DNA of 64,000 nt from Rhodospirillaceae bacterium. Its GTDB lineage: Bacteria; Pseudomonadota; Alphaproteobacteria; Rhodospirillales; Rhodospirillaceae. The stretch lies in contig JAPKDQ010000007.1 in the NCBI GenBank assembly GCA_028822445.1, forward strand, positions 1-64,000, given 5' to 3'. The notes under the pieces were generated by a model that saw only the letters and a list, made by a program, of their open reading frames with translations, made no database searches and was not told the DNA's origin. The translations under genes and the position numbers were made by a program. Position 1 is the first letter of the stretch; each line of letters begins with the position of its first letter. Below are positions 11,906 through 31,220 of the stretch, in pieces.

Positions 11906-14900
11906 TTGGCCCCGCCTCAAATAAATGTAGCGCCTATTTTGGCCCACGCATCGCAGTGTCATGGCGCAGGTCAACTCGCAGAGGCCGAGAAAGGATATAG
12001 ACAGGTACTGCAAAGTAATCCTGAACATCCGGACGCTCTCCACCTGTTGGGTGTTCTTGTCGGACAATCGAACGACGTTCAGGCCGGCATTAATTTAATA
12101 AACAAAGCAGTCCAACTGCGGCCCAATTTTCCAGGGGCTCTCCTTAACTTGGGCCTACTTCTTCAGAATAACGGCCTAATTTACGAGGCCGCCCTGTCAT
12201 ATACACGCGCTGTACGACTTGACCCTAAAAGGGCAAGTGCATGGAACAATTTAGCGATATGCTTTAGTGATCTCGGCCAAATTGATGACGCCTCATCGAC
12301 CATAGAAGAAGGCATCGCACGAAATCCAACCAGCGAAAGCCTCTATGATAGCGGGTGTACGTTTCATAAACGGAAAGGCCAATTTTTGGCCTGCATTGAT
12401 TTAGTGGATAGAGGCATTCGGCGTCTCCCCGAATCAAGTCGATTATGGATGCACCGAGCTGATGCATGCTTCGCACTCGAACGACTTGGTGAAGCGTGGG
12501 ATGCGTATTCATGGCGCAAACGGGCTCCAGAAAACCCAAACCAAGCACCCGAATATCCACTGCCCACCTGGCAGGGAGAAGACCTAACCGACAAATCAAT
12601 TCTAATCTGGACGGAACAGGGTCCCGGGGAAACTTTTCTCTTTTCCAGCCTGATCGATGACGTCACAGAATCAGCTAGGTTGTGCACAATCGCAACCACA
12701 GAGCGCCTAAAACCTATTCTTGCACGATCATTTCCAAGGGTCACAGTTGTCGATGGCGAAACGTATACCGCGACGCCGGAAACCGCTGACTTTCAATGCT
12801 CGCTAGTGGACCTTGCTAGATGGATGAGGCGGTCACTAAATGACTTTAAGGTTCGTGCCCCACATATAAAAATTGACCAAGCCCGTGGTCAGAAAGAGAG
12901 CAAGAGCAGTTCGCTAGCGCGCGATGAATTCTTAACGGTAGGAATAGCGTGGCGCAGCATAAACGTTCAATCAGCAGCAGAGAAATCTTTAACCCTTGAT
13001 TCCATAAGGGCTATCCTCGCCGTGCCTGGAATTAAATTTGTCAGCCTTCAATATGGAAATGTACAAGAAGAAATCGAAAACCTTAGGTCCACAACAGGGC
13101 TGCATGTCGACTACAAATCTTCGATAGACCCCATAGCTGATCTTGATGGGCACCTTACGCAAATAGCCAGCCTTGACCTAGTGATCTCTACATCAAACAC
13201 AGCAGCACATGCTGCCGGGGCCCTCGGTGTTCCAACCTGGGTCCTCTTGCACCACACCATTGGCGAGGGCCTCTATTGGCCTTGGCTTACAGAAAGAACA
13301 GACAGTCCCTGGCATAGATCTGCAACACTATATAGACAGCCAACTAGAGGTGACTGGGCGACACCAATCGCTAAAGCAGCAATCGACCTTGCACGCCTTA
13401 GATCTCAAAAAAAACCTGGTTTTGATTTGGGTAAACACCTTTCAAGTCTAGCGTTCGCCTACTTCAAATCGCAACAAGGAGTTCAGGCCGGCCTAGTCGC
13501 CAACGCTGCATTGAAGGCCGGCCATGAAGACCTGAACCTCAACCGACTGGCAGCAAAATATTACTCTGATATCGACCAGCCAGAAAACGCACTGAAAATC
13601 CTCAACGCCACCGCGCGCCTCGGTATAGAATCCGTCGACTTCCTTATTGACCGTGCCCGCGCGCTAAAGGCCACCGGCCGCCTGGACGATGCAATAGAAG
13701 ATTTAGAGCTTGCCCTGACAATTAACCCCGATCAAATTGCAGCCTTAGACAGCTTGGCAAAAGCGCGGCGAGAAAACGGACAGTTGCAGTCAGGCCTGGA
13801 CGCATTACTAAAAGCGCACGCGTTAGAGCCAGGCATGGTTGGAATTAGAATGTCACTCGGCACATTCCTATTAGAGCTCGGCAGAACCATTGAAAGCAGC
13901 GAGATATTTAGCGGGCTTATTAAAGAGAAGGAGGGCGTTGCAGATGCGGCATCCTCTCTTGCCATGGCGCTGTTACTAGACAACCGCTTCAAGGAGGGCT
14001 GGCCATTGCTACGTCATCGCCTTGGCAGAGCCGGAACGAATATAGTTTATGCCCACTTTCCTTTTACTATATGGAACGGCGAAAGCCTGGATGGAAAACA
14101 CGTTCTTGTATGGACTGAACAAGGAATTGGGGAAGAAATTCTCTCCGCTACTATGATGCGAGACTTAGCAAAAACCACCAAAGCCATAACTCTGTTGTGC
14201 TCTAGGCGAATGGTGCCAGTCTTAAAAAGAAGTCTAAAAGGGGTGCGCGTTGCCGAACGCAAACAACCCTTGCCTCCGGAGGCATTAGACAAAGGCATCG
14301 ATATACAAATGTCTCTCGGCGACCTTGGGCATCTATTACGCCCATCGATTCAGTCCTTTGGTTCAAATTCAGACACTCCGGCCCTGCGACCGAATTCCCA
14401 AAAACGGAAAAAGCTGCGCCGAAATTATGAAGAGCAAGCGTCAGGAAGGCCGCTGATTGGGTTGGCATGGCATAGCAGCGCTCCGGAATTAGGGGCCCTA
14501 AAGAGCCTTGGGCCAGATGTCGCGGCATCCATAATTAAAAACACCGACGCCCAATATATTTCCCTTCAATACAGCCCCTCAGCCGAAGACGTAGCGGTGC
14601 TTTCCAACGCGGGTGCCGATCGTTGGATCCACGACACGTCTGTGGATCCACTGGTTGATATGGAACTGGCAACTGCTCAAGTCGCAGCCATGGATTTTGT
14701 AGTGACAATCAGCAACACCACAGCACATATTGCCGGCGGACTGGGTATTCCTACAGCCTTACTGATACCCAGGCATACGGGCCGTTTTTGGTATTGGAGC
14801 AGAGATCAGCCTATGAGTTTGTGGTACCCATCAGTGCAGGTATACGAATCTGATGGTGCCTTTGATTGGACCTACGCACTTACACAGATTACGGAAAGAA

Positions 14901-14926
14901 TAAATCATCTGAGCCAAGCACAATGA
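11906..14926 (+). CDS. double-module TPR-GT-TPR-GT protein (1006 aa)
   Basis: Two complete modules: TPR...WQGEDLTDKSILIWTEQGPGE...SNTAAHAAGALGVPTWVLL, then TPR...WNGESLDGKHVLVWTEQGIGEE...SNTTAHIAGGLGIPTALLIPRHTGRFWYW. TTG start in ORF track. Confidence 0.85.
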   Translation: MAPPQINVAPILAHASQCHGAGQLAEAEKGYRQVLQSNPEHPDALHLLGVLVGQSNDVQAGINLINKAVQLRPNFPGALLNLGLLLQNNGLIYEAALSYTRAVRLDPKRASAWNNLAICFSDLGQIDDASSTIEEGIARNPTSESLYDSGCTFHKRKGQFLACIDLVDRGIRRLPESSRLWMHRADACFALERLGEAWDAYSWRKRAPENPNQAPEYPLPTWQGEDLTDKSILIWTEQGPGETFLFSSLIDDVTESARLCTIATTERLKPILARSFPRVTVVDGETYTATPETADFQCSLVDLARWMRRSLNDFKVRAPHIKIDQARGQKESKSSSLARDEFLTVGIAWRSINVQSAAEKSLTLDSIRAILAVPGIKFVSLQYGNVQEEIENLRSTTGLHVDYKSSIDPIADLDGHLTQIASLDLVISTSNTAAHAAGALGVPTWVLLHHTIGEGLYWPWLTERTDSPWHRSATLYRQPTRGDWATPIAKAAIDLARLRSQKKPGFDLGKHLSSLAFAYFKSQQGVQAGLVANAALKAGHEDLNLNRLAAKYYSDIDQPENALKILNATARLGIESVDFLIDRARALKATGRLDDAIEDLELALTINPDQIAALDSLAKARRENGQLQSGLDALLKAHALEPGMVGIRMSLGTFLLELGRTIESSEIFSGLIKEKEGVADAASSLAMALLLDNRFKEGWPLLRHRLGRAGTNIVYAHFPFTIWNGESLDGKHVLVWTEQGIGEEILSATMMRDLAKTTKAITLLCSRRMVPVLKRSLKGVRVAERKQPLPPEALDKGIDIQMSLGDLGHLLRPSIQSFGSNSDTPALRPNSQKRKKLRRNYEEQASGRPLIGLAWHSSAPELGALKSLGPDVAASIIKNTDAQYISLQYSPSAEDVAVLSNAGADRWIHDTSVDPLVDMELATAQVAAMDFVVTISNTTAHIAGGLGIPTALLIPRHTGRFWYWSRDQPMSLWYPSVQVYESDGAFDWTYALTQITERINHLSQAQ

Positions 14927-16539
14927 ACGGTAGCATGTCAGATGGTATTATAGCTGGTATAGTTAACCAACTCGTCAATGCACGCAGTAAACTAAAGGAC
15001 GGGAAGTTCATTGAGGCGTATCATGATTTCAAAGTCGTGACACAGGTCCATCCAGAAGAACCGCGCGCATGGGAAGGGCTAGGACAGAGCTTAGAACAAC
15101 TGGGCAAACCAAACGATGCAGTTGATGCATATGCGCGGTCAATCTTTTTTGATCCTAAAAATTACACGGCTACCCTTCATCTAGGGAACCTTCTGATAGA
15201 ACTAAACGAAAATGAAAAAGCCATCCCTGTATTGTCGAAGGCTCTTGACTTAAATCCAAGCTCAGTAATTGCTCTCAGTAACTTAGCCGCGGCCTACATG
15301 AACCTGCGGCGCTTTTCTGATGCTGCTTTAAATTTCCAGCGCGCCCTAGCACATAACCCAAAATCGATACCCGCGCTTCTAAACCTTGGCACGTGCATGC
15401 GCGAAAGTGGCAAGCCCGAACTGGCGGTCATAGTCTTCGAGAACGCTCTTTCAATCGACCCGGATTCATTGGATGCCACAGCGCGACTAGGGTCCACACT
15501 ATCAGATATGAACAAGACTGACGCGGCTCTAGCCGCCTTGAACAAGCACATTGAAAAACACCCGCAGGACGCTGAGTGTCACCAAATCAAAGCGCTTGTA
15601 TTGCTTCGGGCAGGCATCCTGGATGATGGGCTGCGTGAATATGAATGGCGGCACTACCCCACAAGCCTTAGCGTACCTGCACGGCCGTTAAATGTTCCAA
15701 GTTGGAACGGTGACGATATAAACAACAGAACTTTGCTGATCTGGCTGGAACAAGGGATTGGCGACGAACTGCTGTCACTAAGCGCCTTGCGTCAGCACCT
15801 AAGCACGCCTGATAAGCAGGCGATCATGATCGAGTGCGACCCACGAATTTATAGCATAGTGAGCCGCTCATTTCCGTTGGTACGTGTAATACCTCGACAA
15901 AGCCCACCCTCGGACGAAACCAAATTTGCGGATATAAGTTGCCCAGCGTGGACAGCCGTCAGGCATCTCAAATCAGACAAAGATATATCGACCGAGCCCA
16001 GCGGCTACCTTCAAGCAGAGCCAGCTACAACATCATCGCTGAGATCACGATATGAGCAGCGTGCGAATGGACGGAAGATTATAGGGCTATCCTGGACCAG
16101 CAGTGGACGCACAGGAAACCTGAAGACCCCTCCCATTCAAAACTGGTCCCAACTCCTTGCAGTCGACGATTATTTCTTTGTCAGTCTTCAATATTTAGCG
16201 TCGGCAGACGATTTGCTAGCCATATCCGAATTTTCGGGTGGAAGATTCTTTTGTGATGAGACGATCGATGCCGCTAATGATTTAGATCAAGTCGCCGCAC
16301 AAATCGCAGCAATGGACGCAGTAATAACGATTAGCAATTCTACGGCGCACATGGCTGGAGCCCTTGGGGTGCCGGTCGCCACTTTAGTGCCAAGCGGTTA
16401 CGGCGGATTCTGGTACTGGTTCAGAGGGCGGGCGGACAGCCCTTGGTACCCGTCAATGAGAATATGCCGCCAAAACATGCCCGGAGATTGGACTCATGCA
16501 ATACTAGAGGCCATAGACTGGCTTAAGCGGTTAAACTGA
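14923..16539 (+). CDS. TPR-repeat glycosyltransferase
   Basis: ATGA overlap with upstream gene; TPRs then WNGDDINNRTLLIWLEQGIGDELLSL, IGLSWTSSG, VSLQYL, AAQIAAMDAVITISNSTAHMAGALGVP, FWYWFRGRADSPWYPSM. Confidence 0.85.
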   Translation: MNGSMSDGIIAGIVNQLVNARSKLKDGKFIEAYHDFKVVTQVHPEEPRAWEGLGQSLEQLGKPNDAVDAYARSIFFDPKNYTATLHLGNLLIELNENEKAIPVLSKALDLNPSSVIALSNLAAAYMNLRRFSDAALNFQRALAHNPKSIPALLNLGTCMRESGKPELAVIVFENALSIDPDSLDATARLGSTLSDMNKTDAALAALNKHIEKHPQDAECHQIKALVLLRAGILDDGLREYEWRHYPTSLSVPARPLNVPSWNGDDINNRTLLIWLEQGIGDELLSLSALRQHLSTPDKQAIMIECDPRIYSIVSRSFPLVRVIPRQSPPSDETKFADISCPAWTAVRHLKSDKDISTEPSGYLQAEPATTSSLRSRYEQRANGRKIIGLSWTSSGRTGNLKTPPIQNWSQLLAVDDYFFVSLQYLASADDLLAISEFSGGRFFCDETIDAANDLDQVAAQIAAMDAVITISNSTAHMAGALGVPVATLVPSGYGGFWYWFRGRADSPWYPSMRICRQNMPGDWTHAILEAIDWLKRLN

Positions 16540-16619
16540 GGTGGTCGACACTTGTTTTGAGTGTGGGCTTAGGGTTTAAGACTCACATGCACACGAACCA
16601 GGGCCACGGGGACTAGACT

Positions 16620-17300
16620 ATGATCCGCGTTTTCATCGGATATGATAGCAGAGAGGCTGTAGCCTTTCATGTTTTGTCGCACAGCATTCACACGCGAGCC
16701 TCTCAGCCCGTTGAAATTTCTCCGCTGTTGCTGTCGCAATTAAAAGACGTGTTTCACCGCGAAAATCACCCCCTGCAGTCCACAGAATTCTCGTTTTCGC
16801 GTTTTCTAGTCCCGTACCTTTCTGATTATCAGGGTTGGTCACTGTTTTGCGACTGCGACATGCTCATGCTAGACGACATAGCCAACCTGTGGTCGATCAG
16901 AGATGATCGATATTCCGTCCAAGCTGTCAAACATAAACATGAGCCAAAGGAAGATATAAAATTCCTGGATCAACCACAAAGCAAATACGAGAAAAAAAAT
17001 TGGTCGAGCGTAATACTATTCAACAACGCTCGCTGCAAAGCACTTACGCCTGAATATGTTAATTCGGCAACAGGGTTAGAGCTTCATCAGTTTAAATGGC
17101 TAAATGATGATTCTCTGATTGGTGAATTACCAACTCGCTGGAACCACCTTGTAGACTATGATGCTAAATTGCCGCCAGAAGAGTTGTCGCTCCTTCACTA
17201 CACTGAAGGCGGGCCGTATTTTGAGGATTATAAAGACTGTGGGTACTCAGATTTATGGTTCGAGGAACGCGATGCAATGGGTTACTCAGGAATTAGGTAG
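16620..17300 (+). CDS. glycosyltransferase, GT-A-like with DxD motif
   Basis: MIRVFIGYDSREAVAFHVLSHSI; WSLFCDCDMLMLDDIANLW (CDCDM DxD); W-N-hydrophobic acceptor region. Confidence 0.7.
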   Translation: MIRVFIGYDSREAVAFHVLSHSIHTRASQPVEISPLLLSQLKDVFHRENHPLQSTEFSFSRFLVPYLSDYQGWSLFCDCDMLMLDDIANLWSIRDDRYSVQAVKHKHEPKEDIKFLDQPQSKYEKKNWSSVILFNNARCKALTPEYVNSATGLELHQFKWLNDDSLIGELPTRWNHLVDYDAKLPPEELSLLHYTEGGPYFEDYKDCGYSDLWFEERDAMGYSGIR

Positions 17301-17370
17301 GGCACCTTTGAAGGTTATACATTGTCTTTTGCCCGGCATTACAAATGCCAACGCTGCGGGTTAGCTCTAT

Positions 17371-19026
17371 ATGAAGCGCGCACTCCCACGTATCGATGAA
17401 GGAAATTTCTTGGTAGAGGCGGTTAAACGCCACCAAGCAGGTGATCTCGCGGGCGCAAGGGACCTGTATCGGGCGATCCTGACCCAGAACCCCAAGCATG
17501 CAGATGCTATATTCAGAATAGGTACAATCGCATTACAGGTTAACCAATACGATAAGGCCGCTGATTATATACGGCAGGCTATTAAGGTCGGTCCGGTCAC
17601 AAGTGCCATGTTGATCAACCTTGGGGCAGCACTTCGGGGTCTAGAAGAGTACAAGTCTGCTATCAGAGCGTATGATCGCGCCATCAAGCTCAATGTTAAC
17701 CTGGCCGATGCCTACTACAATAAAGGCCGCGCCCTTCAATCTCTAAAAAAGTTCGAAGAAGCCAAGGATAGTTACAAACTTGCTTTGTCGGTCAATGATA
17801 AAGAAGCAGACACCTGGATAAACCTAGGCACTGTCCAACGTGAATTAGGCGAAGCAGACGACGCACTCTATGCATTTGAAGTTGCAATGCGGCTCAACCC
17901 AATTATGGCCGCAGGCTACAGTAATGCGGCAGCAATATATTTTGACAGTGCATTGTTCGAAAAGTCGATGGTTATGATGGACAAGGCGATCGAACTCGAG
18001 CCAGAGAATTACGCCTACAGGGAAAAGCTTGGGTTTTTCCTCCGCTCGGTTGGGAATTTAGAACGAGGCTGGGTAGATTTTGATATTCGCTTCCTTGCCC
18101 ATGAAGAGGCAAAGGCTAACCGGAGACCTGAGCCTCCACCTTATTGGAACGATGAAGACTTGAGTAATAGAAAGATACTCTTATGGACTGAGCAAGGACT
18201 AGGGGAGGAAGTTTTTAGCGCCGGCATAATTCCAGACCTGCTAGAAACCGGGGCGCAATGCGTCATCGAATGCTCGGAGCGTATGCAGCCACTACTCCAG
18301 AGAAGTTTTCCGTCAATTAAAGTTACGAGATGGTTAGATAACCGGGAGACGGTAAATCAAGCGTCCCCCCCATTTGAATTTCAGTGCCCCGCTTTAAGCA
18401 TGGTTAAAACTTTCCGCCCAACAGTAGATAGCATCACGAACCATGTTCCATACATTAGAGCAGACCCAAAGTTAGTCGTCGATCTCCGCTCGAAATATGA
18501 AGAACTGGCGCAGGGCAAACGTATAATTGGCATTTCCTGGCGCAGTAAGAATCCAGAATTAGGCAAAGACAAGACTGTCCCAATAATGGGTTGGCGCCCA
18601 ATTCTAGATGCGGAAGATGTTTTCTTTGTAAACTTGCAATATGGCGAATGTACTGAAGAAATTGAAGAGGTGAAAAGTAAACTCGGCGTGGACATATTCG
18701 TCGACCCTGATGTGGATGCATTGGGAGACTTAGATCCCGTGATCGCGCAAATCGCAGCAACAGATTTGATTATATCTGCTTCAAATTCAAACGTTCACTT
18801 CGCAGGCGCAATGGGAACCCCTGTCTGGTCGATGCTGCCCAAATCCCGGGGTTTATTATGGTTTTGGTTTATGGATCGGAGTGACAGCCCTTGGTATCCA
18901 TCAGTTCGGTTATTCCGTCAGCAATCTGCACCGTCTCAAGATCACTCCTGGTGGACAGAGGTTATTGACGACGTTGCTGCAGCACTGCCTCAATGGCTGG
19001 CTGCACCGCTGGCGCCACGGCCGTAG
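17371..19026 (+). CDS. TPR-repeat glycosyltransferase
   Basis: TPRs then WNDEDLSNRKILLWTEQGLGEEVFSAG, IGISWRSKNPELGKDKTVPI, VNLQYGE, DLDPVIAQIAATDLIISASNSNVHFAGAMGTPVWSML, LWFWFMDRSDSPWYPSVRLFRQ. Confidence 0.85.
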   Translation: MKRALPRIDEGNFLVEAVKRHQAGDLAGARDLYRAILTQNPKHADAIFRIGTIALQVNQYDKAADYIRQAIKVGPVTSAMLINLGAALRGLEEYKSAIRAYDRAIKLNVNLADAYYNKGRALQSLKKFEEAKDSYKLALSVNDKEADTWINLGTVQRELGEADDALYAFEVAMRLNPIMAAGYSNAAAIYFDSALFEKSMVMMDKAIELEPENYAYREKLGFFLRSVGNLERGWVDFDIRFLAHEEAKANRRPEPPPYWNDEDLSNRKILLWTEQGLGEEVFSAGIIPDLLETGAQCVIECSERMQPLLQRSFPSIKVTRWLDNRETVNQASPPFEFQCPALSMVKTFRPTVDSITNHVPYIRADPKLVVDLRSKYEELAQGKRIIGISWRSKNPELGKDKTVPIMGWRPILDAEDVFFVNLQYGECTEEIEEVKSKLGVDIFVDPDVDALGDLDPVIAQIAATDLIISASNSNVHFAGAMGTPVWSMLPKSRGLLWFWFMDRSDSPWYPSVRLFRQQSAPSQDHSWWTEVIDDVAAALPQWLAAPLAPRP

Positions 19027-19031
19027 CCCTC

Positions 19032-20726
19032 ATGGCACCACAAACTCTCGCGCAACTTCTCGAGGCAGCCGTCAATCATCATCAAGCTGGCAATCTAAAG
19101 AAGGCTGAACAGCTATACCTAAAAGCCCTTAAGCATGACCCTAACCAGCCAGACGCGCTCAATTTACTCGGCGTTCTTACTCAGCAACTCGGCAACACCC
19201 CAAAAGCGCTGTCCTTATTCGAGCAAGCAATTGAAGCCGCACCGCACCTTGCAAGCATTCACTTCAACAAGGGTAAATCTCTACACGATGACGGACGCAT
19301 AGAAGGTGCTAAAGCAGCATACGAAATGGCATTGTCTTGCGACCCAAGGTTTCCAGGCGCAATTCTTAATCTTAGCGTATTATTACAAGAGAAAGATCAG
19401 ACCGAGGAAGCACTGAAGTATTTAAACACCCTGATTAAACTCGCCCCAGACCATCAAAAAGCGCACTACAACATTGGAAAATGTTACCAGGCTCAGTGTC
19501 GCTTCGATGACGCCCTAATCGCATTTAACAAAGCGTTAGGCTTTAACCCTAATGACCATGACGCTCATTTCGCGATCGCCAACACCTTCAGCGACATCGC
19601 AAACTATGACGACGCCATCAAGCACATCAAAATTGCCATCACCATCAAACCAGGTTGGGCTCAAGCTTATAACAACTGGGCAAATTACTTAGCAGGCCAG
19701 GACAAACACGAAGAAGCGGTATCCGTTTTCGATCAAGCAATCTCATGCGAACCGAACAACATCAATGCTCGCGTAAATCGAAGCCTATCTTTACTTACCC
19801 TCGGGAAATTAGAGGCTGGTTGGAAAGACTATAAGTACCGCGCCGAATCTGACGCGCCTTATTACCGCACTGTTGCGAGCGAACTCCCGCGTTGGGATGG
19901 CTCAGACCTCAGAGATAAATCTATTTTAGTATGGAATGAGCAAGGCCTAGGGGAAGAGATCCTCTTCGCTAGCCTACTTTCTGACCTCGCTAAAATTGCT
20001 AGCCGCTGCACCCTATTATGCTCACCCAAACTCTATCTGGTTTTTAAACGGTCCTTTTCTCACTTCCCAGGCCTAGAAATTACGAACAGTGAGCACACGC
20101 AATTTACCGATTCAGATTTCGACTTCCAGACGTCTTTAGCCGATTTAGGGCGGTTTTTTAGATCGTCCCTATCTAAATTTCCAAAGCCAACGCCTTACCT
20201 AACTTGGAATCCAGCACTTAGAAACTCTTTCAGAGCGGACTTAGAAGAACGGTTTGGCAAAAACCGAAAATTCGTTGGGATATCCTGGGCTAGCGATAAT
20301 CCCATCATAGGTAAGGAGAAGACTGTGCCTCTGGGCCAATGGCAGACATTGCTATCTAGCCCTGGCGTGACGTTTATAAATGTACAATACGGTAGCGCGG
20401 CAATGGATACCGCAGTTCTGCCACCAGAACTCAGACGCAATATTGTGACTGTGAATACTGTGAACCTTGATGGCGACCTTGAGGACACTTTGGCCTTACT
20501 CGGCGCGCTTGACGAATTCGTAACCTCCAGCAACACGACAGCTCACCTAGCCGGAGCAGCAGGCGTTCAGACCCACGTCATGGTCCCCCGCGCGCGCGCG
20601 CGCATCTGGTACTGGTTTCTTGAAGGATCAAGCGGCCCTTGGTATGCGGCAGTTCATTTGCATCGCCCAAACCGGGCCGGCACATTTGAGGACGCTATGG
20701 GCAACATAGCAAAAGGCCTTCTGTGA
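19032..20726 (+). CDS. TPR-repeat glycosyltransferase
   Basis: ATG at 19032 (MAPQTLAQLLEAAVNHHQAGN). TPRs then WDGSDLRDKSILVWNEQGLGEEILFASLL, VGISWASDNPIIGKEKTVPLGQW, INVQYGS, TSSNTTAHLAGAAGV, RIWYWFLEGSSGPWYAAVHL. Confidence 0.85.
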   Translation: MAPQTLAQLLEAAVNHHQAGNLKKAEQLYLKALKHDPNQPDALNLLGVLTQQLGNTPKALSLFEQAIEAAPHLASIHFNKGKSLHDDGRIEGAKAAYEMALSCDPRFPGAILNLSVLLQEKDQTEEALKYLNTLIKLAPDHQKAHYNIGKCYQAQCRFDDALIAFNKALGFNPNDHDAHFAIANTFSDIANYDDAIKHIKIAITIKPGWAQAYNNWANYLAGQDKHEEAVSVFDQAISCEPNNINARVNRSLSLLTLGKLEAGWKDYKYRAESDAPYYRTVASELPRWDGSDLRDKSILVWNEQGLGEEILFASLLSDLAKIASRCTLLCSPKLYLVFKRSFSHFPGLEITNSEHTQFTDSDFDFQTSLADLGRFFRSSLSKFPKPTPYLTWNPALRNSFRADLEERFGKNRKFVGISWASDNPIIGKEKTVPLGQWQTLLSSPGVTFINVQYGSAAMDTAVLPPELRRNIVTVNTVNLDGDLEDTLALLGALDEFVTSSNTTAHLAGAAGVQTHVMVPRARARIWYWFLEGSSGPWYAAVHLHRPNRAGTFEDAMGNIAKGLL

Positions 20727-20895: not shown

Positions 20896-20927
20896 TTGAC
20901 TTTAACCCACTGGGACGTTGTTATACG
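20896..20927 (+). promoter_or_regulatory. candidate promoter for the 473-aa exported protein gene
   Basis: TTGACT at 20896-20901 and TTATACG-type box at about 20921-20927; spacing 19-20 nt is longer than ideal. Confidence 0.3.
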
Positions 20928-21009
20928 TATGTGCTGACGGGCGCTCGCGCGTATGCATGCGCGTACCTTTTAAATCAGATATCTGGAAACTCAAGGGGAT
21001 CCTTTTGAA

Positions 21010-22431
21010 ATGAAACGACAAACTCTTCTAAGCGGTAGTGCACTGTTGGCAACAACGGCACTATCAACAGCTGCAGTAGCAGGAGCATTTGTTCCGCTGG
21101 TAGCAGCTGGTGGCATTGTAGCTACAAAAATGACGGCTATTGGCCTATCTTCTCAGGTCTTCGGTGGAACTGCTCCAGAAACGCTCGTACTTGGCGGCTC
21201 TATAAGTGGCGGACAGATTGCTCTCGATTTCACCAACACCATCACAAGCACCTTTGACGTCACGGTCACACCAACCGGTGCGAACTTCGTTAGTGCATCA
21301 ACGGTTAAAGTGGCTTCTTACAAAAAAGACGCTAATAAATCGCTTGTTCTCGACACTAGCTTGGTTGGTTGTACCGTTCAGGTCTTGACTGATCGCATTC
21401 TGATCGAAGATTGCGCAGTTAGTGCGGCATCAGCAAAATCTGACGTTCTCCTGATTTCTGGACTTCAGTTCAACGAAGCTAATGGTCTTGCAACAGTAGG
21501 CAGCAGCATTTCGTTGAGTGCCGTTGTACAAGCCGCAAACGGTGGAACAACTTTTGAAACCGTTGCTTCTACAGCGATCATCACGAGTAAGGACTCGGTC
21601 GAAACTACGATCAAGGCTGGCACAACTGGCAAGTTGATTAATACATCAGTACCGCCATTTGCTACGTTTGCTTCTGCAGCAACAACCGTGTCACTGGCCA
21701 ACATCAAAAACAGCTCATCTGCTGCCGTTGGTGCTGACCTAGCAACAAACCTTGCCGCAGTACCTTCTGCCATCACAAATACTGTTGAGCTTACAGTCAC
21801 TCACGGCGTTCTCACGGACGCAGCGACGACTCAGCTCGTGGCAGGTGCAGTAACGGTTATAGCGTCGAACTTTAAATCAAACGTCGCTTCGTTTACGTTT
21901 GTAGGCGCTGCAACGATTACGTCTTATGACATAAGCGTTGCGTTTAATGGCACTACAGCAGTCGGTAACTGGGCTGCAGGCACCGTCGCCGTCGTGTTCA
22001 CTAAAGGCTCCGCACTTGCAACAGGTATTGCTAATGCAAGTGGGGCTCTCGCCGCAATCGCACGTAGCGGTATGTCAACTTCCATCAACACAGCTAACTC
22101 ATCCGTAGCTGGTGGAACGGCCTTCCAATCCTTGGTCCGTATCACTAACAACGGCTCAGTATCTGGCGCAGCAACCGTCATTGTTCGCAATGATAAGACT
22201 GGTGTCATTCTCGGCACCTTCACAACTGCTGACATTGTTGCCAATGGAACACTGCAAATCAGTATGCCTACGATTGAAGGCGCAACTGGTATTACACCAG
22301 CTGGTCAATACAACCTTGCAATCAGTGGACCATTTACTGGTTACGCACAGCACGTCATGTTCAACTCGACTGCTGGCACGTTTGTTGATCTGTCCGGTTT
22401 CCGGAAGGGCGCTGGTACAAACGCACCTTAA
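21010..22431 (+). CDS. exported Ala/Thr/Ser/Val-rich protein, candidate surface protein or T2SS/glycosylation substrate
   Basis: Signal peptide-like MKRQTLLSGSALLATTALSTAAVAGA; low-aromatic, Thr/Ser/Ala/Val-rich body; AAGGGGA ribosome-binding region; own intergenic region and terminator. Confidence 0.75.
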   Translation: MKRQTLLSGSALLATTALSTAAVAGAFVPLVAAGGIVATKMTAIGLSSQVFGGTAPETLVLGGSISGGQIALDFTNTITSTFDVTVTPTGANFVSASTVKVASYKKDANKSLVLDTSLVGCTVQVLTDRILIEDCAVSAASAKSDVLLISGLQFNEANGLATVGSSISLSAVVQAANGGTTFETVASTAIITSKDSVETTIKAGTTGKLINTSVPPFATFASAATTVSLANIKNSSSAAVGADLATNLAAVPSAITNTVELTVTHGVLTDAATTQLVAGAVTVIASNFKSNVASFTFVGAATITSYDISVAFNGTTAVGNWAAGTVAVVFTKGSALATGIANASGALAAIARSGMSTSINTANSSVAGGTAFQSLVRITNNGSVSGAATVIVRNDKTGVILGTFTTADIVANGTLQISMPTIEGATGITPAGQYNLAISGPFTGYAQHVMFNSTAGTFVDLSGFRKGAGTNAP

Positions 22432-22468: not shown

Positions 22469-22500
22469 AAAGGGGAGAGCTTTGCTCTCCCCTTTTTTTT
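22469..22500 (+). terminator. rho-independent terminator
   Basis: AAAGGGGAGAGC-TTT-GCTCTCCCCTTT perfect 12-bp stem followed by a T run to 22500. Confidence 0.95.
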
Positions 22501-22645
22501 GCCTACTCTTCTGGGAATACTTTTACCGTAATTATCCGCAGAGACCACAATCGCTCTAAATCCAATTTATGACATTCGCTTAACTTCCCATTGTGGTCGC
22601 CAAAAGGTTACAAGTTAGTCTTAGCCTGAAAGGGAGACGGTAACC

Positions 22646-23857
22646 GTGTCACGTTTTGATTATGAGGCAGTAGACCACGCTGGAAAGCCGCTGGTTGGCC
22701 AGGTATCGGCGGACACTCAACGCGATGCGTTAAGGCTACTGTCTGATAGGGGTTTGACCACGGTTTCTATCGCAACGTCGAAGCCACCCCGCCAAGTCTC
22801 CAGGCACCTCACTTTTAAACGCGCGCCGAAGACACAAGATTACATTCTAACGGTAAAGCAATTAGCGCTTTTACTGAACTCGGGTGTCCCACTCATCGCA
22901 GCGGTCGACACGCTGAAATCTCAAGGCCTCCACCCAGACCTCATGGCTGCCTTTGATGGCATGTCAAAGTCTCTTCGGTCAGGCGCGTCCTTCTCGAACG
23001 CATTCAAGAAAACACTGCCCGAGCTTCCCTCTTATGCTGCCCAACTCTGTGCTGCCGGAGAGTCTATTGGTGAATTGGGCCCTGCACTTTCTGATACAGC
23101 CACTCAAATGGAATATGAATACCGCGTTAAGCAGGACATTCGAAACGCGCTGACCTATCCAGCAATTCTTGTTTCAGCCGGACTCGCAGCCGTACTATTC
23201 ATTTTTCTAGTCGTTGTGCCTCGGTTTTCAGCGATGTTGGCAAGCTCTAAAGAGCCCTTGCCATTTCTTTCAGAACTCGTGCTATCGACCGGAATGGCAT
23301 TAAGTGAAAACCGCTCACTAGTCTTTCTCTCCCTCGCATTACTCATCGGGGTGTCTATATGGCTACTCAAACAATCTGCGGTTCGGGAGGCACTACATCA
23401 ATACATGACATCTGTGCCGTTACTAGGGTCGTGGCTAAGAGAGTCAGAACTAGCCAGGTGGTCATCCATGCTGAGCACTATGCTCAAACACGGCGTCGAC
23501 CTAATTAAGGCTTTGGAGTTCGCGCGTGGAACGATTGCGATTAAATCCATTAGCACACGCATGGAACAAGTCAGCAAACTTGTACGCGGCGGGAAATCAC
23601 TTTCAATTGCGATGCGCGAACAAGAAACATTTTCTGATACAGCATTGAGTCTAGTGCAAGTAGGCGAGGAATCGGGTGAGCTCGCGAGCATGCTCGGTTC
23701 ACTTGCAAACTTATATGAAGAATCTGGGCGGCAAAGAATGAAGCGCTTTTTACTAATACTAGAGCCGGCTGCGATCATTCTGATTGGCATCGTGATCGGT
23801 GGAATCGTAACGGCCATTATGTTAGCAATCACCAGCATCAATCAGGTCTCATTGTAG
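22646..23857 (+). CDS. gspF: type II secretion inner-membrane platform protein GspF
   Basis: MSRFDYEAVDHAGKPLVGQVSADT...; two GspF domains, SFSNAF, VGEESGELASML, LLILEPAAIILIGIVIGGIVTAIMLAI. GTG start. Confidence 0.95.
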   Translation: MSRFDYEAVDHAGKPLVGQVSADTQRDALRLLSDRGLTTVSIATSKPPRQVSRHLTFKRAPKTQDYILTVKQLALLLNSGVPLIAAVDTLKSQGLHPDLMAAFDGMSKSLRSGASFSNAFKKTLPELPSYAAQLCAAGESIGELGPALSDTATQMEYEYRVKQDIRNALTYPAILVSAGLAAVLFIFLVVVPRFSAMLASSKEPLPFLSELVLSTGMALSENRSLVFLSLALLIGVSIWLLKQSAVREALHQYMTSVPLLGSWLRESELARWSSMLSTMLKHGVDLIKALEFARGTIAIKSISTRMEQVSKLVRGGKSLSIAMREQETFSDTALSLVQVGEESGELASMLGSLANLYEESGRQRMKRFLLILEPAAIILIGIVIGGIVTAIMLAITSINQVSL

Positions 23858-23869: not shown

Positions 23870-24337
23870 ATGCAGAAAAGCTACAATTCAGAGAAACGTA
23901 CTAAGAAATTAGTACAGCAAGGCGGGTTTACTTTACTCGAAATGCTTGTAGTGCTTGTCATCATCGGCCTTGTCGCAAGTTTAGTGGGGCCCCAGTTACT
24001 TGGGCGCGTAGATAGCTCTCGCGTTACAGCAGCGGATACGCAAATTCGTATGCTTAAAGGCGCACTGGACACGCTTCGGCTCGACGTTGGCCGATACCCA
24101 ACAGCAGAAGAGGGGTTAGGCTTACTGATGAGGCAGCCATCGGATGAGCGAACTCAAAGGAAATGGCAAGGGCCTTACCTTGCAGAATCAGTGCCCCCGG
24201 ATCCATGGGGGAATCCTTACCAATACAAACCAAGGAACTCTACGAACATAATACTTTATAGCTTTGGCGCGGACGGCAAGATTGATGGAGAAGGAATTGA
24301 TGCAGATGTCGGGTTCCTGGATTCTAAAGCCAAATAA
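23870..24337 (+). CDS. gspG: major pseudopilin GspG
   Basis: QGGFTLLEMLVVLVIIGLVASLVGPQLLGRVDSSRV; YPTAEEGLGLL; DPWGNPYQYK; GADGKIDGEGIDADVGF. Confidence 0.96.
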   Translation: MQKSYNSEKRTKKLVQQGGFTLLEMLVVLVIIGLVASLVGPQLLGRVDSSRVTAADTQIRMLKGALDTLRLDVGRYPTAEEGLGLLMRQPSDERTQRKWQGPYLAESVPPDPWGNPYQYKPRNSTNIILYSFGADGKIDGEGIDADVGFLDSKAK

Positions 24338-24821
24338 AAACAACCCCGCTGCTAACGGTTTCTCGCTGTTGGAAGTGCTGGTCGTGGTCTTTATTATAGG
24401 TCTCGCCGCTTCTCTTGTTATGCCTAATTTTCCGTTACTTTTTGACAGATTAGTCTACGCAAACCAGCGGGATACTTTTCTTCGCGAAATCAACACGCTT
24501 CCATACTCAGCATTCATATCAAATCAGGATCTAGTCCTAGCCAGCGGTACTCTGGAATCTAGCCCAGGTAAGGCAGAGAATGACGAGAGCGACGTCAATA
24601 GAACAATAGACATAAGCGACCTAGAACTGGAGGGCTCCTATAGGGCTCCAAATATACGCCCGGTCAAACTCGACATACCTAAAGGATGGACCATACGGGT
24701 ATCACAGCCCATCATCTACCGGGCCTCTGGCTTCTGTACCGGTGGCACGATCGATATTCTCGCCGGAGAACTAAGCTACGAATACGACCTAGCCCCCCCC
24801 TATTGCCAAGCCACCCCCTAA
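24306..24821 (+). CDS. gspH: pseudopilin GspH
   Basis: ANGFSLLEVLVVVFIIGLAASLVMPNFP, type III signal G/F with E5. ATG at 24306 overlaps the gspG 3' end. Confidence 0.88.
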   Translation: MSGSWILKPNKNNPAANGFSLLEVLVVVFIIGLAASLVMPNFPLLFDRLVYANQRDTFLREINTLPYSAFISNQDLVLASGTLESSPGKAENDESDVNRTIDISDLELEGSYRAPNIRPVKLDIPKGWTIRVSQPIIYRASGFCTGGTIDILAGELSYEYDLAPPYCQATP

Positions 24822-24827
24822 TTCAAG

Positions 24828-25283
24828 ATGAGCAGCTTAAGCCTACCCAGAGCCAAAAAAGGAAGCCAGGGCTTCACCTTTATTGAAGCGATTGTAGCTA
24901 TGGCAATCGTAGGCATGGCTGCATTGCCAATTTTGTTGCTCATTAGCCAATCACTTGACCAACTTACGAGGTCTGCCGACGCCAATGAACGCGCCTCAGC
25001 AATGCAATCAGCCATCGCAATAATAGATCCTATAAATCCTATGAATACGCCATCCGGTGAAACCTCTATGGGTACAATCTCGTTTACATGGACCAGCGAG
25101 CTCCTTGTTGCACCTAATGACGGAGAGCAGGTTGGCGCCGGGCTGCCAGGTTACCGCGTTGGTTTCTACAAGGTAACAATTGATGTGACCAAGATGGGAA
25201 GCCCTTGGTTTAACTTCGATATGCGCAAGGTAGGCTATGAAAAAATTCAGTATGGTTTGCCATTTGAGCGGTCAGGACTATGA
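24828..25283 (+). CDS. gspI: pseudopilin GspI
   Basis: SQGFTFIEAIVAMAIVGMAALPILLLI; length and position between gspH and gspJ. Confidence 0.85.
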   Translation: MSSLSLPRAKKGSQGFTFIEAIVAMAIVGMAALPILLLISQSLDQLTRSADANERASAMQSAIAIIDPINPMNTPSGETSMGTISFTWTSELLVAPNDGEQVGAGLPGYRVGFYKVTIDVTKMGSPWFNFDMRKVGYEKIQYGLPFERSGL

Positions 25284-25906
25284 CAAGGAATAATCGCAAC
25301 CGGCAACGCGGGTTCACACTCTTGGAGGTGATCGTTGTTCTGATGATCTCAAGCCTGATCGCTACTATTCTTGTCCAAGGGCTATCACTTGTTCTGAATA
25401 CAAGGTTTCGGGTAATGAGCGCACTTACCCGGATTGAGACAGCAGGCCTCCAAACTAACATCATCGTAACGCCACTAAGAGGTTTGCTGCCGGACCACCA
25501 AGATGAGCTTGGCTTCTTTGCCGGAAATACACGGCAATTAAAGGGGCTAACCCTAAGTCCATTGCACGGGACAACGGGTGCGCCGACGGTATTTTCCATG
25601 GCACTTGAGCACAAGACTAGAGATGACGAGACGGTCCTCAATTACTTAGAAAACGGGTATGAGCCAGTAGAGTTGGCAAGGTGGCCAGGTAACGTCGGAG
25701 AATTTTCTTATGTTGGCCGTGAAGGTGTTTGGAAGAATAGATGGCCAGTAGTTTTACCAACCGATGCCGAAAAGATGCTCCAGGTACCAAGAACAATACG
25801 CCTAGACACTGGGTTAGAAACCCGGCCGGTTCACGTCGTTAGGGTAATGGGTCCTCACAATCGCCCCGTACGCCTTCAAGACACGCCGTTTAGAACCAGT
25901 CAGTGA
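25280..25906 (+). CDS. gspJ: pseudopilin GspJ
   Basis: RQRGFTLLEVIVVLMISSLIATILVQGLSLVLNTRFRV; ATGA overlap with gspI. Confidence 0.88.
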   Translation: MTRNNRNRQRGFTLLEVIVVLMISSLIATILVQGLSLVLNTRFRVMSALTRIETAGLQTNIIVTPLRGLLPDHQDELGFFAGNTRQLKGLTLSPLHGTTGAPTVFSMALEHKTRDDETVLNYLENGYEPVELARWPGNVGEFSYVGREGVWKNRWPVVLPTDAEKMLQVPRTIRLDTGLETRPVHVVRVMGPHNRPVRLQDTPFRTSQ

Positions 25907-27828
25907 CGCTGATGAAAAACTCTCGTGAGGCTAAGCTCGACCAGGCAATGCGGTACCTACAATCGGGCCACCCTCAGGAAAGTGAAAAGCTTTGCCTAGA
26001 GATATTACGCGGCGCCTCGAAACTAACTGACGTTCAACATATCCTAGCCCTTGCCTATCGGGCGCAAGGCAAGCTGTCCGATGCGGAACGGTCGATTAGA
26101 CGAGCACTGTCACGATCGAAGGATAATCCCTCTATTCTGAACAGCTATGCTTTGATACTTCTCGATCAAAACCGCCCAAAAAAAGCAATCAAAGCCTTAC
26201 GGAAAGCGCTAACCATTAACAGCGCGATGTCTGCTGCACATGCCAACCTGGGACATGCACAGCGGATGCTCAACGCACCTAGGGAAGCTGAGACTAGCTA
26301 TAGAAATGCGTTGCGCATCACCCCAGGACACGAAGATACCCTTATTCAGCTGGCTCTCTTACTTCGAGCTAATCATCGACTTGAAGAGATAAACTTTCTT
26401 CCTCCGCTTAAGGCAGGGAGTGCGCCTGAAAACCCAGGCCTAGCAATGGTCTACGGCCTCATGGAACTTGACCAGAACGCTCCAGAGCACGCTGAAATAC
26501 TTTTCAGAAAGGCTCTCGAGAAACAGCCGTTTTCTATAGAACTCCTCGTCAATTTGGGTCTTTCCTTAGCAAAACAGGAAAAAGTCGCAGAGGCGAAAGC
26601 AGCTTACGAAAGTGCTTTGAAGTTAGACCCGACAGCCGCCGAAGCACATATAAACTTAGCTGATTTACTCAAGTATAGCGACCCAAGCCAAGCCCGAACT
26701 CACCTTACAGAAGCTTTGAAACTAACGCCCGGCGATAAGTCTGCCCACGACATGCTTGGGTTTGCATGGTTCATGGAACGAAACTTTGACGCAGCTGTGA
26801 AGGAGTTTGACCACGCTATTGATATAGACCCCCTGTATGAGAGAGCCATTTCACACAAAGCTGGTGCCCTGTTTCTGAAGGGTGCCCTCCCCGCCGCATG
26901 GCATGAATACAATCGCTGCCGCTATGGACCGAACGGAATAGCGTTTAGCCCAGTAGGGAATTCTTTGCCACTCTGGAATGCTGATGAGAGAATGGCCGAG
27001 CCCGTATTAGTATGGACAGACCAAGGCCTTGGAGATGAGGTTTTACAACTAGGGTTCGTGAAAGATTTATACGAAACAGAGCGCCCACTCGTGATCGCGA
27101 CGAGTGAACGATTGGTTGAAATTACTCGCCGGACTTTTCCAAGAGCCCACTGCATTAGCAAGGAGGCTGTTTCTGGCGGAGCACCTTTTGATAACCAGCC
27201 ATCAACACAATGCCCCGCTACACTGATAGCGCCCATTTATAGAAAGTCTTTAGATAGCTTTCCAAAGAGAGAGTCATATTTAGTCGCCAATGAAGAAAAC
27301 TCAAAATCCATGAGAAGCGATTATCTCCGCGGACGCACAGACAATTTGTTAATCGGTATTTCATGGCGTAGTTCCAACCAAGTCTTCGGCAAGCAGAAAT
27401 CGATCCCGGTAACCGACCTAATCCCAATACTCAGCGTTCCAGGGTTCACATTCATCGATCTTCAGTATGGTGAGACCGATATCGAGAAAAAAGGCCTCCC
27501 CCTTGATATTCAAGGCAAAATAATCCGAGATACCAACGTAAACCCACTAAAAAATATGACTACGTTTGCAGACCAAGTTCGCGCATTAGATCTAGTTATT
27601 ACTACAAGCAATACGACAGCACATGTGGCTGGTGCCCTTGGGCGCCCTACATGGACGCTTGTCCCTAGGCTAGGTCCCGGTTGGCTTTGGTATTGGTTTG
27701 ACCAGACGGAACAATGCCCCTGGTACCCGAAAATGAACTTATTCCGCCAAGAAAACAACGGAAGTTGGCAGAGCCCAATATCGGATGTCACCCAAAGACT
27801 CATAAGCTTTTCAGATACTTACCAGTAG
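25903..27828 (+). CDS. TPR-repeat glycosyltransferase embedded between gspJ and gspK
   Basis: GTGA overlap with gspJ. TPRs then WNADERMAEPVLVWTDQGLGDEVLQLGFV, IGISWRSSNQVFGKQKSIPV, IDLQYGE, DLVITTSNTTAHVAGALGRPTWTLVPRLGPGWLWYWF. Confidence 0.87.
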   Translation: MTLMKNSREAKLDQAMRYLQSGHPQESEKLCLEILRGASKLTDVQHILALAYRAQGKLSDAERSIRRALSRSKDNPSILNSYALILLDQNRPKKAIKALRKALTINSAMSAAHANLGHAQRMLNAPREAETSYRNALRITPGHEDTLIQLALLLRANHRLEEINFLPPLKAGSAPENPGLAMVYGLMELDQNAPEHAEILFRKALEKQPFSIELLVNLGLSLAKQEKVAEAKAAYESALKLDPTAAEAHINLADLLKYSDPSQARTHLTEALKLTPGDKSAHDMLGFAWFMERNFDAAVKEFDHAIDIDPLYERAISHKAGALFLKGALPAAWHEYNRCRYGPNGIAFSPVGNSLPLWNADERMAEPVLVWTDQGLGDEVLQLGFVKDLYETERPLVIATSERLVEITRRTFPRAHCISKEAVSGGAPFDNQPSTQCPATLIAPIYRKSLDSFPKRESYLVANEENSKSMRSDYLRGRTDNLLIGISWRSSNQVFGKQKSIPVTDLIPILSVPGFTFIDLQYGETDIEKKGLPLDIQGKIIRDTNVNPLKNMTTFADQVRALDLVITTSNTTAHVAGALGRPTWTLVPRLGPGWLWYWFDQTEQCPWYPKMNLFRQENNGSWQSPISDVTQRLISFSDTYQ

Positions 27829-28011: not shown

Positions 28012-29106
28012 GTGACGCGCAATAGCAACCATACTCGGGGTTTTATACTCCCGCTCACTCTTTGGATAATCGCAGCGATGGGATTTGCTGCAGCCGTACT
28101 ATCTGAATGGGTGTCCGAAGCTGTTCTCAATGCAATCGCTATTCAGGACAAAGCTGAAGCTGAGCTGTCCTTTGCAAACGTCCGCAACGAGTTGGTTTTC
28201 ACCCTAGCACGCAAACCCATGACACGACGCGGCCTAGAGGTTGGAGAGCTTGTGTCCGGACCCACCGGGACGTCCTTACAAGAGGTTATGAATGCCGACT
28301 ACACATCGGATGGAGTTGTTACTCTTGATGGCCAAGTCCACGTAATGGCTAGCAATCAGCAATATGCCGTTAGCCTTCAGGATGGTAGGGGACTACTTAA
28401 TATAAACGCAGCGACGGCTGAAGATTTGAGGGGGTTCTTCGAAGCTCTTCAACTCGAAGATGAGAATTACTCTCTGTTAATTGACACTTTAATGGACTAT
28501 CGAGATGAGGACGATCTCTCACGCCTCTCAGGCGCAGAGAAAGCAGATTACACTCGCCGAAACCTATATCCACCGGCAAATAGCCAACTCATGTCTCCAT
28601 GGGAAGCGCAACGTATCATCGGGTGGACTAAATCATCTGAGCTTTGGAACATGCAGTTTGAACGACCAGTCATGACGACTTGCAGTTCACCAGGATTCAA
28701 TCCGAACACTGCACCACCAGAAATCCTAGCAACCTTTATTGACGGGTTATCAATAAGAGACGCAGACAGGCTCGTCGAGCAACGTAAGGCTATGCCGTTC
28801 AGAAACGCTAGAAATGTAGGCGATGCAGCAGGTCTAATACTTGTAAACCAACCCTTTTTCTTTAGCTTCAGTCCGGGCCGCTGCATCGTCGTCGACCTAA
28901 TTGATAGAGAAACGAACGAACGAATACGATTTTCGCTAACGCTACTTCCCATGCAACGTGAACAACCTTGGCAAATAGACTATGTCCTTAAAATTCCCAA
29001 AGCATACACGCGATTATTGGATCAAATTGATCCAGAGGTCACTTTCCCCAGCCCCGAAGAGATTGTTGGAGCAACAGGAAAAACTGGAGGTTTTAGAGGG
29101 CTCTGA
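28012..29106 (+). CDS. gspK: GspK minor pseudopilin
   Basis: RGFILPLTLWIIAAMGFAAAVLSEW (no E5, as usual for GspK); helix-hairpin-helix region INAATAEDLRGFFEALQLE; NPNTAPPEILATF. GTG start. Confidence 0.9.
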   Translation: MTRNSNHTRGFILPLTLWIIAAMGFAAAVLSEWVSEAVLNAIAIQDKAEAELSFANVRNELVFTLARKPMTRRGLEVGELVSGPTGTSLQEVMNADYTSDGVVTLDGQVHVMASNQQYAVSLQDGRGLLNINAATAEDLRGFFEALQLEDENYSLLIDTLMDYRDEDDLSRLSGAEKADYTRRNLYPPANSQLMSPWEAQRIIGWTKSSELWNMQFERPVMTTCSSPGFNPNTAPPEILATFIDGLSIRDADRLVEQRKAMPFRNARNVGDAAGLILVNQPFFFSFSPGRCIVVDLIDRETNERIRFSLTLLPMQREQPWQIDYVLKIPKAYTRLLDQIDPEVTFPSPEEIVGATGKTGGFRGL

Positions 29107-30085
29107 CAGACGCTTGATCTGGGTACCAGCACGCCGAACACTTAAACACACGCTCTTCACCGTTCCAGAACAGCTTAGCAATCGCAAAAGAACCTCAGCT
29201 CTTGAACTCAAAATAAGTGCCTGGTCGCCTTTCCATAACACTCGCTTTTCCGCAATCTGGTCTGGCAATGTCGCAAGCGTTTTCGCCTGGGATCAGGACG
29301 CACTAAGTGAACGCATTAGCGAACACGGCTACCTTCCATCAGAATGTGAGATCGTTCCTGAAGCGTTTATAAGAGCCCCTGAGAGAGATTCCGTTAGGCT
29401 TGTTGCCTGTGACGCCGGGGTAGAAGCTCAAGTCTGGGACGGGGGTTTCTTGCGCGCTTGCCGGTGGTGGTCGACTGTTCCAAAAGCCAAAGAATGGGCC
29501 TTATTCGCTCGGTCAACAAACAGCACCGTAAACACCATCATTCCTGACCTGTCAGAGCCAGAGTGGCTTGAACTGCCCTGGCATGTTCAGGAAGCCGGTG
29601 CTTCGATGATTAATCGAGCACTCAAGAATGAACGTATTCTGGTTGGTCTCGCGATGATATTACTGGCACCCTGCATCTACTATACGGCCCAGTGGCTCAC
29701 ATACTCCACGCTGGATATCGGTATAAACCGAGAAATTGTAGCCATTGAGACTAACAGCCGCACCGTAAGGGCTGACAGATCCAGCGCCCTATCAAGCCTG
29801 GAGAGAGCAGAAGACCTCATCGCACTAAATCGGTATCCACACCAGTTAGAGATACTTTCACGGGCCCATAGCCTACTTCAAGGACACCCAGTAACAATAT
29901 CGAATTGGGATTATGATGATGGATCACTAGAATTTGGATTAGAATCAAAGCGGGACATGGATGCACGAGTGTTCATTTCTGATTTCGAGAGAGACCCACT
30001 CTTTACATCAGTAAGCTCTGGAACCCGGGGTGAACGCCTAGTCTTAAGAATGAACGTCCTCGATACGCTGGAAGCCAAGAAATGA
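28982..30085 (+). CDS. gspL: GspL-like T2SS assembly protein
   Basis: Cytoplasmic actin-like N-terminal region, TM around VGLAMILLAPCIYYTAQWL, periplasmic ferredoxin-like end; gene order K-L-M. Real start is probably a TTG near 29066, avoiding the long gspK overlap. Confidence 0.75.
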   Translation: MSLKFPKHTRDYWIKLIQRSLSPAPKRLLEQQEKLEVLEGSDRRLIWVPARRTLKHTLFTVPEQLSNRKRTSALELKISAWSPFHNTRFSAIWSGNVASVFAWDQDALSERISEHGYLPSECEIVPEAFIRAPERDSVRLVACDAGVEAQVWDGGFLRACRWWSTVPKAKEWALFARSTNSTVNTIIPDLSEPEWLELPWHVQEAGASMINRALKNERILVGLAMILLAPCIYYTAQWLTYSTLDIGINREIVAIETNSRTVRADRSSALSSLERAEDLIALNRYPHQLEILSRAHSLLQGHPVTISNWDYDDGSLEFGLESKRDMDARVFISDFERDPLFTSVSSGTRGERLVLRMNVLDTLEAKK

Positions 30086-30720: not shown

Positions 30721-31220
30721 GCTACGTTCGAATCACGAGCATGCTAAAGTTACGCGGACTAGTAGGCCGGTATACTTATCACCTCACCAGCATAGCGATG
30801 TGTGCGGTGCTCGGTATCGCCGTAGCCACTTTGAGCGCTAACCAGAAACTGCGTGAAACAAATTTAGAAAACAAATGGGCTCTGCCAGCTGACGACATCC
30901 CATCACTAACATCGGATGTGGACACAATTCTTGCTAATCCACTTTTCGGTGGTGAACCATTTCTTACAGCAGCCTCAGCAGCAGCCGTCGATCCAGACGC
31001 AACAGTCATAGAAGACTGGCGATTGATCGGGATTGTCTCCAAAGGTGGTCAGACAAAAATTATTATAATGAACGATACCATCAATAAACTTCAAAGTGCT
31101 CATGTAGGCGATACTTTGCCGGGTGGAGAAATTTTGATCAGCATAGCAGAGAACAGTATAGAATTTAGAACGGGCGACGCTCTTACCGGCATTGCTTTGT
31201 TCAGAGATATTGAAAGATAG
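30717..31220 (+). CDS. gspC: GspC-like protein (homology-region domain, no PDZ)
   Basis: N-terminal TM, NPLFGGEPF, DWRLIGIVSKGGQTKIIIMNDTINKLQSAHVGDTLPGGEILISI, as in T2SS C/PulC HR domain. Confidence 0.75.
   Translation: MSYVRITSMLKLRGLVGRYTYHLTSIAMCAVLGIAVATLSANQKLRETNLENKWALPADDIPSLTSDVDTILANPLFGGEPFLTAASAAAVDPDATVIEDWRLIGIVSKGGQTKIIIMNDTINKLQSAHVGDTLPGGEILISIAENSIEFRTGDALTGIALFRDIER

Follow-up and report, generated by a model that had tools for sequence, protein, structure and literature searches.

S-layer proteins linked to type II secretion systems (T2SS) have published precedents. Experiments have shown that Slr4 of Pseudoalteromonas tunicata is an S-layer protein, and its gene lies next to a conserved T2SS cluster (PMC7821379). 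The npdA gene of Paracidovorax citrulli also encodes an S-layer protein beside a T2SS cluster (PMC10765051), and the S-layer gene vapA of Aeromonas is cited in the same paper as having such a neighbour. Two other described families are relevant to the locus studied here. FlmG, which combines TPRs with a glycosyltransferase, glycosylates flagellins in the cytoplasm of Caulobacter (PMC7591256). The ASRAH superfamily was named by De Souza et al., who predicted that its members bind sugars, and its non-solo members are always dyads or tetrads (PMC2739507).

We analysed a stretch of 64,000 nucleotides from a member of the Rhodospirillaceae, hereafter the window, which encodes a T2SS cluster interspersed with TPR-glycosyltransferase-like genes (Table 1). 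The gene of interest, ORF473, lies inside this cluster. A sequence-only reading had proposed that it encodes a secreted T2SS substrate or surface-layer protein. ORF473 shares with the T2SS-linked S-layer genes their linkage to a T2SS cluster. NpdA and VapA are, like its product, signal-peptide proteins (about 50 kDa) encoded beside gsp clusters, and NpdA has no recognised domains; they belong to other lineages and are likened to ORF473 by description.

Table 1. Positions, in the window, of the T2SS genes, of ORF473 and of the elements associated with it.
Feature	Position	Strand	Remarks
T2SS cluster	gspE (7718) to gspD (ends 33277)		
gspE	7718..9463	+	
TPR-glycosyltransferase-like gene array	9520..20726	+	genes at 9520, 11906 (two C-terminal domains), 14866, 17371 and 18993
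GT8-like gene within the array	16620-17300	+	
Promoter-like element	20896..20924	+	TTGACT (20896-20901), 17 nt, TGTTAT (20919-20924)
Leader hairpin 1	20931..20944	+	GTGCTGACGGGCGC (GCGCTGACGGGCG(C/T) in other species); begins 6 nt past the -10 element
Leader hairpin 2	20946..20963	+	sequence varies between lineages, pairing kept
Invariant AAGGGGATCC	20993..21002	+	presumed ribosome-binding region before the ATG
ORF473	21010..22431	+	ATG at 21010, stop 22429-22431, 473 aa
Layout of the ORF473 product			signal peptide, residues 1-25; variable all-beta body, residues ~26-358; then the C-terminal module
C-terminal ASRAH-like module	22117..22407	+	residues ~371-464
Intrinsic terminator of ORF473	22469..22502	+	12-bp stem 22469-22495, then T-run
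gspF	22646..23857	+	next gene downstream of ORF473; fixed neighbour
gspG, gspH, gspI, gspJ	23870..25906	+	G by PF08334; H-J by order and prepilin-type N-termini
Further TPR-glycosyltransferase-like gene	25903..27828	+	between gspJ and gspK
gspK, gspL, gspM, GspN/C-position gene, gspD	28012..33277	+	K and D by family match; M by weak match; L and N/C by position

Orthologues of ORF473 were found in 16 of the 61 genomes searched (its own included), all from one family, with 27-66% identity. Five orthologous loci were also present in public contigs, named as metagenome-assembled genomes or single cells of Rhodospirillaceae or Alphaproteobacteria; four of these five are records already in the genome set. 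The carriers form one clade of largely uncultured alphaproteobacteria, and the 13 of them sampled in the rpoB tree group together with an SH-aLRT support of 100. Because the carriers form one clade, the co-occurrence of the T2SS, ORF473 and its C-terminal module may reflect one evolutionary event, and we did not count the joint presence of module and T2SS as an independent line of evidence. G015, a member of the family with a GspG, lacks both the module and ORF473.

The gene is directly upstream of gspF in all 14 fetched loci and on the AG-426-B21 contig, i.e., in every locus that shows the neighbour. TPR-glycosyltransferase-like genes precede it in all fetched loci except one (G022), where a divergent gspK lies upstream and gspF is still downstream. 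The flanking genes named by the sequence-only reading, as well as the terminator it had assigned to ORF473, are where it placed them. Within the genus GspF is 74-93% identical, whereas ORF473 is 46-65% identical, and this faster divergence fits a cargo or surface protein rather than a part of the machine. In one genome (G007) contig breaks interrupt ORF473, and additional copies or pieces are present (L051, L052, L183), which result either from duplication or from an assembly break; L051 has a leader-like hairpin and no intact reading frame at its start.

The product begins with MKRQTLLSGSALLATTALSTAAVAG. Its basic start, its hydrophobic core and the A-V-A before a G mark it on inspection as a Sec-type signal peptide, and the orthologues keep such a peptide by the same criterion. 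The mature protein is made of 15.6% Ala, 14.1% Thr, 10.5% Ser, 10.5% Val and 10.0% Gly, with Ser and Thr summing to 24.6%, charged residues to 8.9%, and Tyr and Trp to 1.1%. This bias is not due to chance, since it recurs in each of the 18 homologues in the alignment (Ser+Thr 24-29%, charged 4-10%). The same alignment shows that length and composition are conserved although the sequence diverges. The open reading frame, the signal peptide and the composition noticed earlier are confirmed. A disulfide had also been suggested between the two cysteines, Cys 121 and Cys 135 (GCTVQVLTDRILIEDC). They are both present in 15 of the 18 homologues, both missing in the other three, and placed on neighbouring predicted strands, a pattern that suits a hairpin disulfide.

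The model of the full-length protein is all-beta (pLDDT 72), in agreement with the beta-sandwiches that had been expected. Its Foldseek matches (Ig-like domains, pilins, adhesins) were diffuse, with TM-scores of about 0.2, and were not used; a match to a PUA domain (E 0.026) was below the cut-off and was dismissed as chance. Pairwise identity is 61% in the signal peptide, 49% in the C-terminal module and 29-37% in the body, which diverges fastest. The signal peptide (window positions 21010-21081) is more conserved than every mature part, and it is conserved at the DNA level too. The codon usage of ORF473 is outside the top 10 of the 48 window genes for likeness to ribosomal proteins, in a genome with weak codon bias. 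As a test of high expression it is uninformative to negative and lends no support to abundance.

The sequence-only reading had recognised no known domain in ORF473. That does not hold for the C-terminal 94 residues (371-464), which form a module shared with other proteins and predicted to have an ASRAH-like fold. Residues 362-468 matched two secreted proteases of the same genome, one trypsin-like and one subtilase-like, with two copies each. Our profile of the module (A3) identified between 5 and 37 copies in every one of the 16 carrier genomes and none in the other 21 family members. Beyond the family, where the order, 288 genomes of the class and 398 genomes of the phylum were covered, it gave nothing but weak matches in G043, G316 and G700. 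No Pfam family was found for residues 371-464.

We read around 60 proteins with the module. They have signal-peptide-like N-termini wherever they are complete, and their modules are paired or fourfold, apart from two sites with a broken frame. No family but ORF473 has a single module; the other intact ORFs read carry two or four. Among the partner domains are reprolysin-like, subtilase, trypsin-like, C-type lectin, beta-helix, BNR/sortilin-like, FG-GAP and MauG. A C-type-lectin-like domain is fused to a module dyad in L085, with similar proteins in other genomes (L094, L116). The module is mostly C-terminal, yet it is N-terminal on MauG-type proteins: L078, L080 and L100 start with a dyad, followed in L100 by a MauG/di-haem cytochrome c peroxidase domain. 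These fusions weaken the idea that the module is strictly a secretion signal at the C-terminus. L055:40-2019, from another alphaproteobacterial family, encodes unannotated paired domains (..VVRLINRS..GFLTAMHDVV / RLRLVNPG..PSGHLVNLS), which matched the module with a probability of 95 and an E-value of 4e-8 in hhalign. By this profile comparison the paired domain is a distant further relative of the module.

The AlphaFold2 model of the module is of high confidence (pLDDT 92) and corresponds to a beta-sandwich of the type of ASRT, the sensory rhodopsin transducer of Anabaena. Foldseek placed Thermotoga TM1070 (1nc7) first, and ASRT (2ii7-2iia) recurred within the best 41 matches. These were the best hits by probability (1.00) and TM-score (0.60-0.66), but had E-values of 0.02-0.24. 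Scored on the query, their TM values were 0.60-0.64. The module profile also aligned over the full length of ASRT 2ii7 in hmmsearch, with a borderline E-value of 0.017, keeping an Asn and a QH motif. This strand-end Asn is near-invariant in 24 modules and aligns with the Asn of ASRT. The module did not match the ASRT family in Pfam, and its sequence matches to fucose lectins and FD15 were rejected as partial and composition-like. The module thus shares with ASRAH domains the fold, the strand-end Asn and the QH motif, but the published His/Cys ligand contacts are not kept. Three residues before the Asn, where the published contact is a Cys, the ORF473 orthologues have an invariant Arg (Arg377), a candidate ligand-binding residue. 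By analogy of fold and motif, the module may bind sugars. The dyad or tetrad habit of non-solo ASRAH members is that of most module proteins here, whereas ORF473 itself has one module.

The search for remote homologues, which the sequence-only reading had advised, gave ASRAH domains (by structure, and by sequence at the borderline) and, as a possible relative, the C-terminal domain of Slr4. Slr4 (PF19526), the S-layer protein of P. tunicata and relatives, resembles ORF473 in its signal peptide, its length of about 470 residues, its richness in Ala, Thr, Val and Ser, and its gene beside a T2SS cluster. The C-terminal domain of the Slr4 homologues that we fetched aligned with the module with an hhalign score of 35.1, mainly over the N-terminal half of the domain. 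None of 100 column shuffles scored above 17.8, and the reversed profile gave 11.3. The N-terminal part of Slr4 scored 18.6 against the module. Full-length profiles of the two proteins aligned solely at the C-terminal domain, in the same place. Matches of PF19526 to isolated modules were weak (best E 0.0089, another 0.21), and the C-terminal profile of Slr4 had no convincing match in the PDB. We did not class ORF473 as Slr4, because none of 18 full-length members matched PF19526 at E ≤ 1 and the N-terminal bodies have no similarity by profile. Judging from these comparisons, ORF473 is not assigned to the Slr4 family but is built and placed like its members, as an analogue with a possibly homologous C-terminal domain. 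The two loci differ: slr4 is at the end of its T2SS cluster, whereas ORF473 is inside, before gspF, and the TPR-glycosyltransferase array and the RNA leader are features of the ORF473 clade.

The region 5' of ORF473 is unusually well conserved. Among genus members, the 150 bp upstream are 78% identical, compared with 34% for the preceding 150 bp and 48% for the 150 bp 5' of gspF. Conservation extends into the gene: identity is 84% over the initial 72 coding bases and drops to 49% over the 228 that follow. Conservation at the DNA level may explain part of the oddly high conservation of the signal peptide. The conserved block (window positions 20896-21028) comprises a promoter-like element and a 5' leader with two hairpins. 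The layout TTGAC(T/A)-17 nt-TNNTAT is present in 15 of the 16 orthologous loci read (G030 deviates), and hairpin 1 (consensus GCGCTGACGGGCGC) lies 6 nt past TNNTAT. Transcription thus probably begins at hairpin 1 or right next to it, with a predicted start at about 20931. Our claim of a promoter rests on conservation, because a sigma-70 scan upstream of ORF473 found none.

Similarly, the claim for hairpin 2 rests on covariation, because the folding energies of single leader sequences are mostly not significant in the genus of the window. With an alignment fitted to the structure, six of the seven modelled pairs of hairpin 2 have substitutions in both partners, and 97% of the cells pair. Covariation in this fitted alignment exceeds that of all 500 shuffles and of all slid controls. 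RNAalifold predicted both hairpins unaided from six divergent leaders. Each of the 16 carrier genomes has exactly one copy of the joint promoter and leader pattern, always on ORF473, and the pattern was found in none of the 45 other genomes and in no other of 385 genomes of the class. The leader had no match in Rfam. It could be a new cis-regulatory RNA family. Hairpins at the 5' end are known to stabilise mRNAs, e.g., that of ompA in E. coli, and by analogy the leader hairpin may serve the abundance of the ORF473 mRNA.

The TPR-glycosyltransferase-like genes and the GT8-like gene are embedded in the gsp cluster through most of the clade. The genome of the window encodes 11 copies of the glycosyltransferase-like C-terminal domain, of which seven are in the T2SS locus (in six genes). 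The GT8-like gene is strongly conserved, with 71-88% identity. The TPR part of the genes neighbouring ORF473 is clear, and the C-terminal domain showed a weak GT9-like similarity in one protein (E 0.0021) and no match in the PDB, which gives weak support to an assignment of the catalytic family. FlmG has the same order of a TPR N-terminus and a glycosyltransferase-like C-terminus; the likeness is one of architecture. FlmG modifies flagellins, whereas the putative enzymes here may, by analogy, glycosylate ORF473 before export.

The proposal of a secreted T2SS substrate or surface-layer protein is thus partly supported and is the best-supported reading, given the linkage to gspF, the S-layer-type composition, the all-beta model, the Slr4-like C-terminal domain and the conserved promoter and leader. 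We lean, with moderate confidence, towards ORF473 being a structural S-layer-type surface protein, a T2SS cargo resident in the locus, with a saccharide-binding-type C-terminal anchor common to exported enzymes. This is supported by a linkage to gspF that holds through large sequence divergence and by the published precedents (slr4, npdA, vapA). It is weakened by a codon usage unlike that of ribosomal proteins, by the negative PF19526 search and the dissimilar N-terminal bodies, by an association of T2SS, ORF473 and module that spans a single clade, by matches to ASRAH and Slr4 sequences that are individually weak, and by Foldseek E-values no better than 0.02. The same all-beta multidomain model, with its diffuse matches to pilins and adhesins, and the same ASRAH-like module, which is found on diverse secreted proteins, would also suit a T2SS-exported adhesin or matrix protein, secreted or at the surface, that binds glycans and forms no lattice. 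We regard this as rather unlikely: there is usually one ORF473 per genome, and its fixed place, conserved length and dedicated leader suit a structural protein better.

Attachment proteins with a C-terminal domain are part of the type IX secretion system, and ORF473 could by analogy be an accessory part or surface docking factor of the T2SS, its single module recruiting or attaching cargo with dyads or tetrads. It is always within the gsp cluster, it is the sole family with one module, and its module is better conserved than its body. Yet a part of the machine would hardly evolve so much faster than the machine genes, for which GspF is the measure, or have its own promoter and terminator, which makes such a role unlikely. 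The signal peptide is the sole certain localisation feature, and it would also suit a periplasmic or outer-membrane-associated protein incidental to the gsp cluster. The linkage to gspF maintained across the clade despite large divergence and the composition typical of surface proteins leave this explanation very little credit.

The analysis shows the gene, its linkage to the T2SS locus, the module with its relatives, and the leader with its covariation. For the S-layer-type protein that we favour, the route of export, the abundance, the anchoring through sugars, the lattice and any glycosylation by the neighbouring TPR-glycosyltransferases are inferred, and we propose the following course. 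ORF473 would be transcribed from its own conserved promoter, with the 5' hairpin leader probably stabilising or tuning an abundant mRNA. The protein would cross the inner membrane via Sec. Once in the periplasm it would fold as a row of beta-sandwich domains, one of them holding a disulfide hairpin, before export through GspD. Its ASRAH-like domain would then bind an envelope saccharide (LPS or polysaccharide) and anchor it at the surface, where paired and fourfold modules would hold exported proteases and other proteins. A more complete coat system can be envisaged, although we consider it unlikely as a whole. It would combine the T2SS, an S-layer-type ORF473 that receives glycans from the TPR-glycosyltransferase array while still in the cytoplasm, ASRAH-like modules docking exported proteases, lectins and oxidases onto that glycan (or onto the same envelope saccharide), a leader RNA family specific to ORF473 that sets its expression, and the C-terminal domain of Slr4 as the same kind of anchor.

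The well-known S-layer of alphaproteobacteria, RsaA of Caulobacter, depends on type I secretion. If ORF473 is an S-layer-type cargo, S-layers exported by T2SS would extend to an alphaproteobacterial clade. If the complete coat system is true, an ASRAH-like anchor would be common to the T2SS-exported S-layers of two proteobacterial classes. The locus offers a proposed anchor domain in common with Slr4 and a candidate family of leader RNAs that goes with a single probable surface protein. The module family, absent from Pfam, may predict proteins that are exported or held at the surface by such a T2SS. The long-standing question of cargo recognition by T2SS would become testable through a module common to the candidate cargo of this clade.
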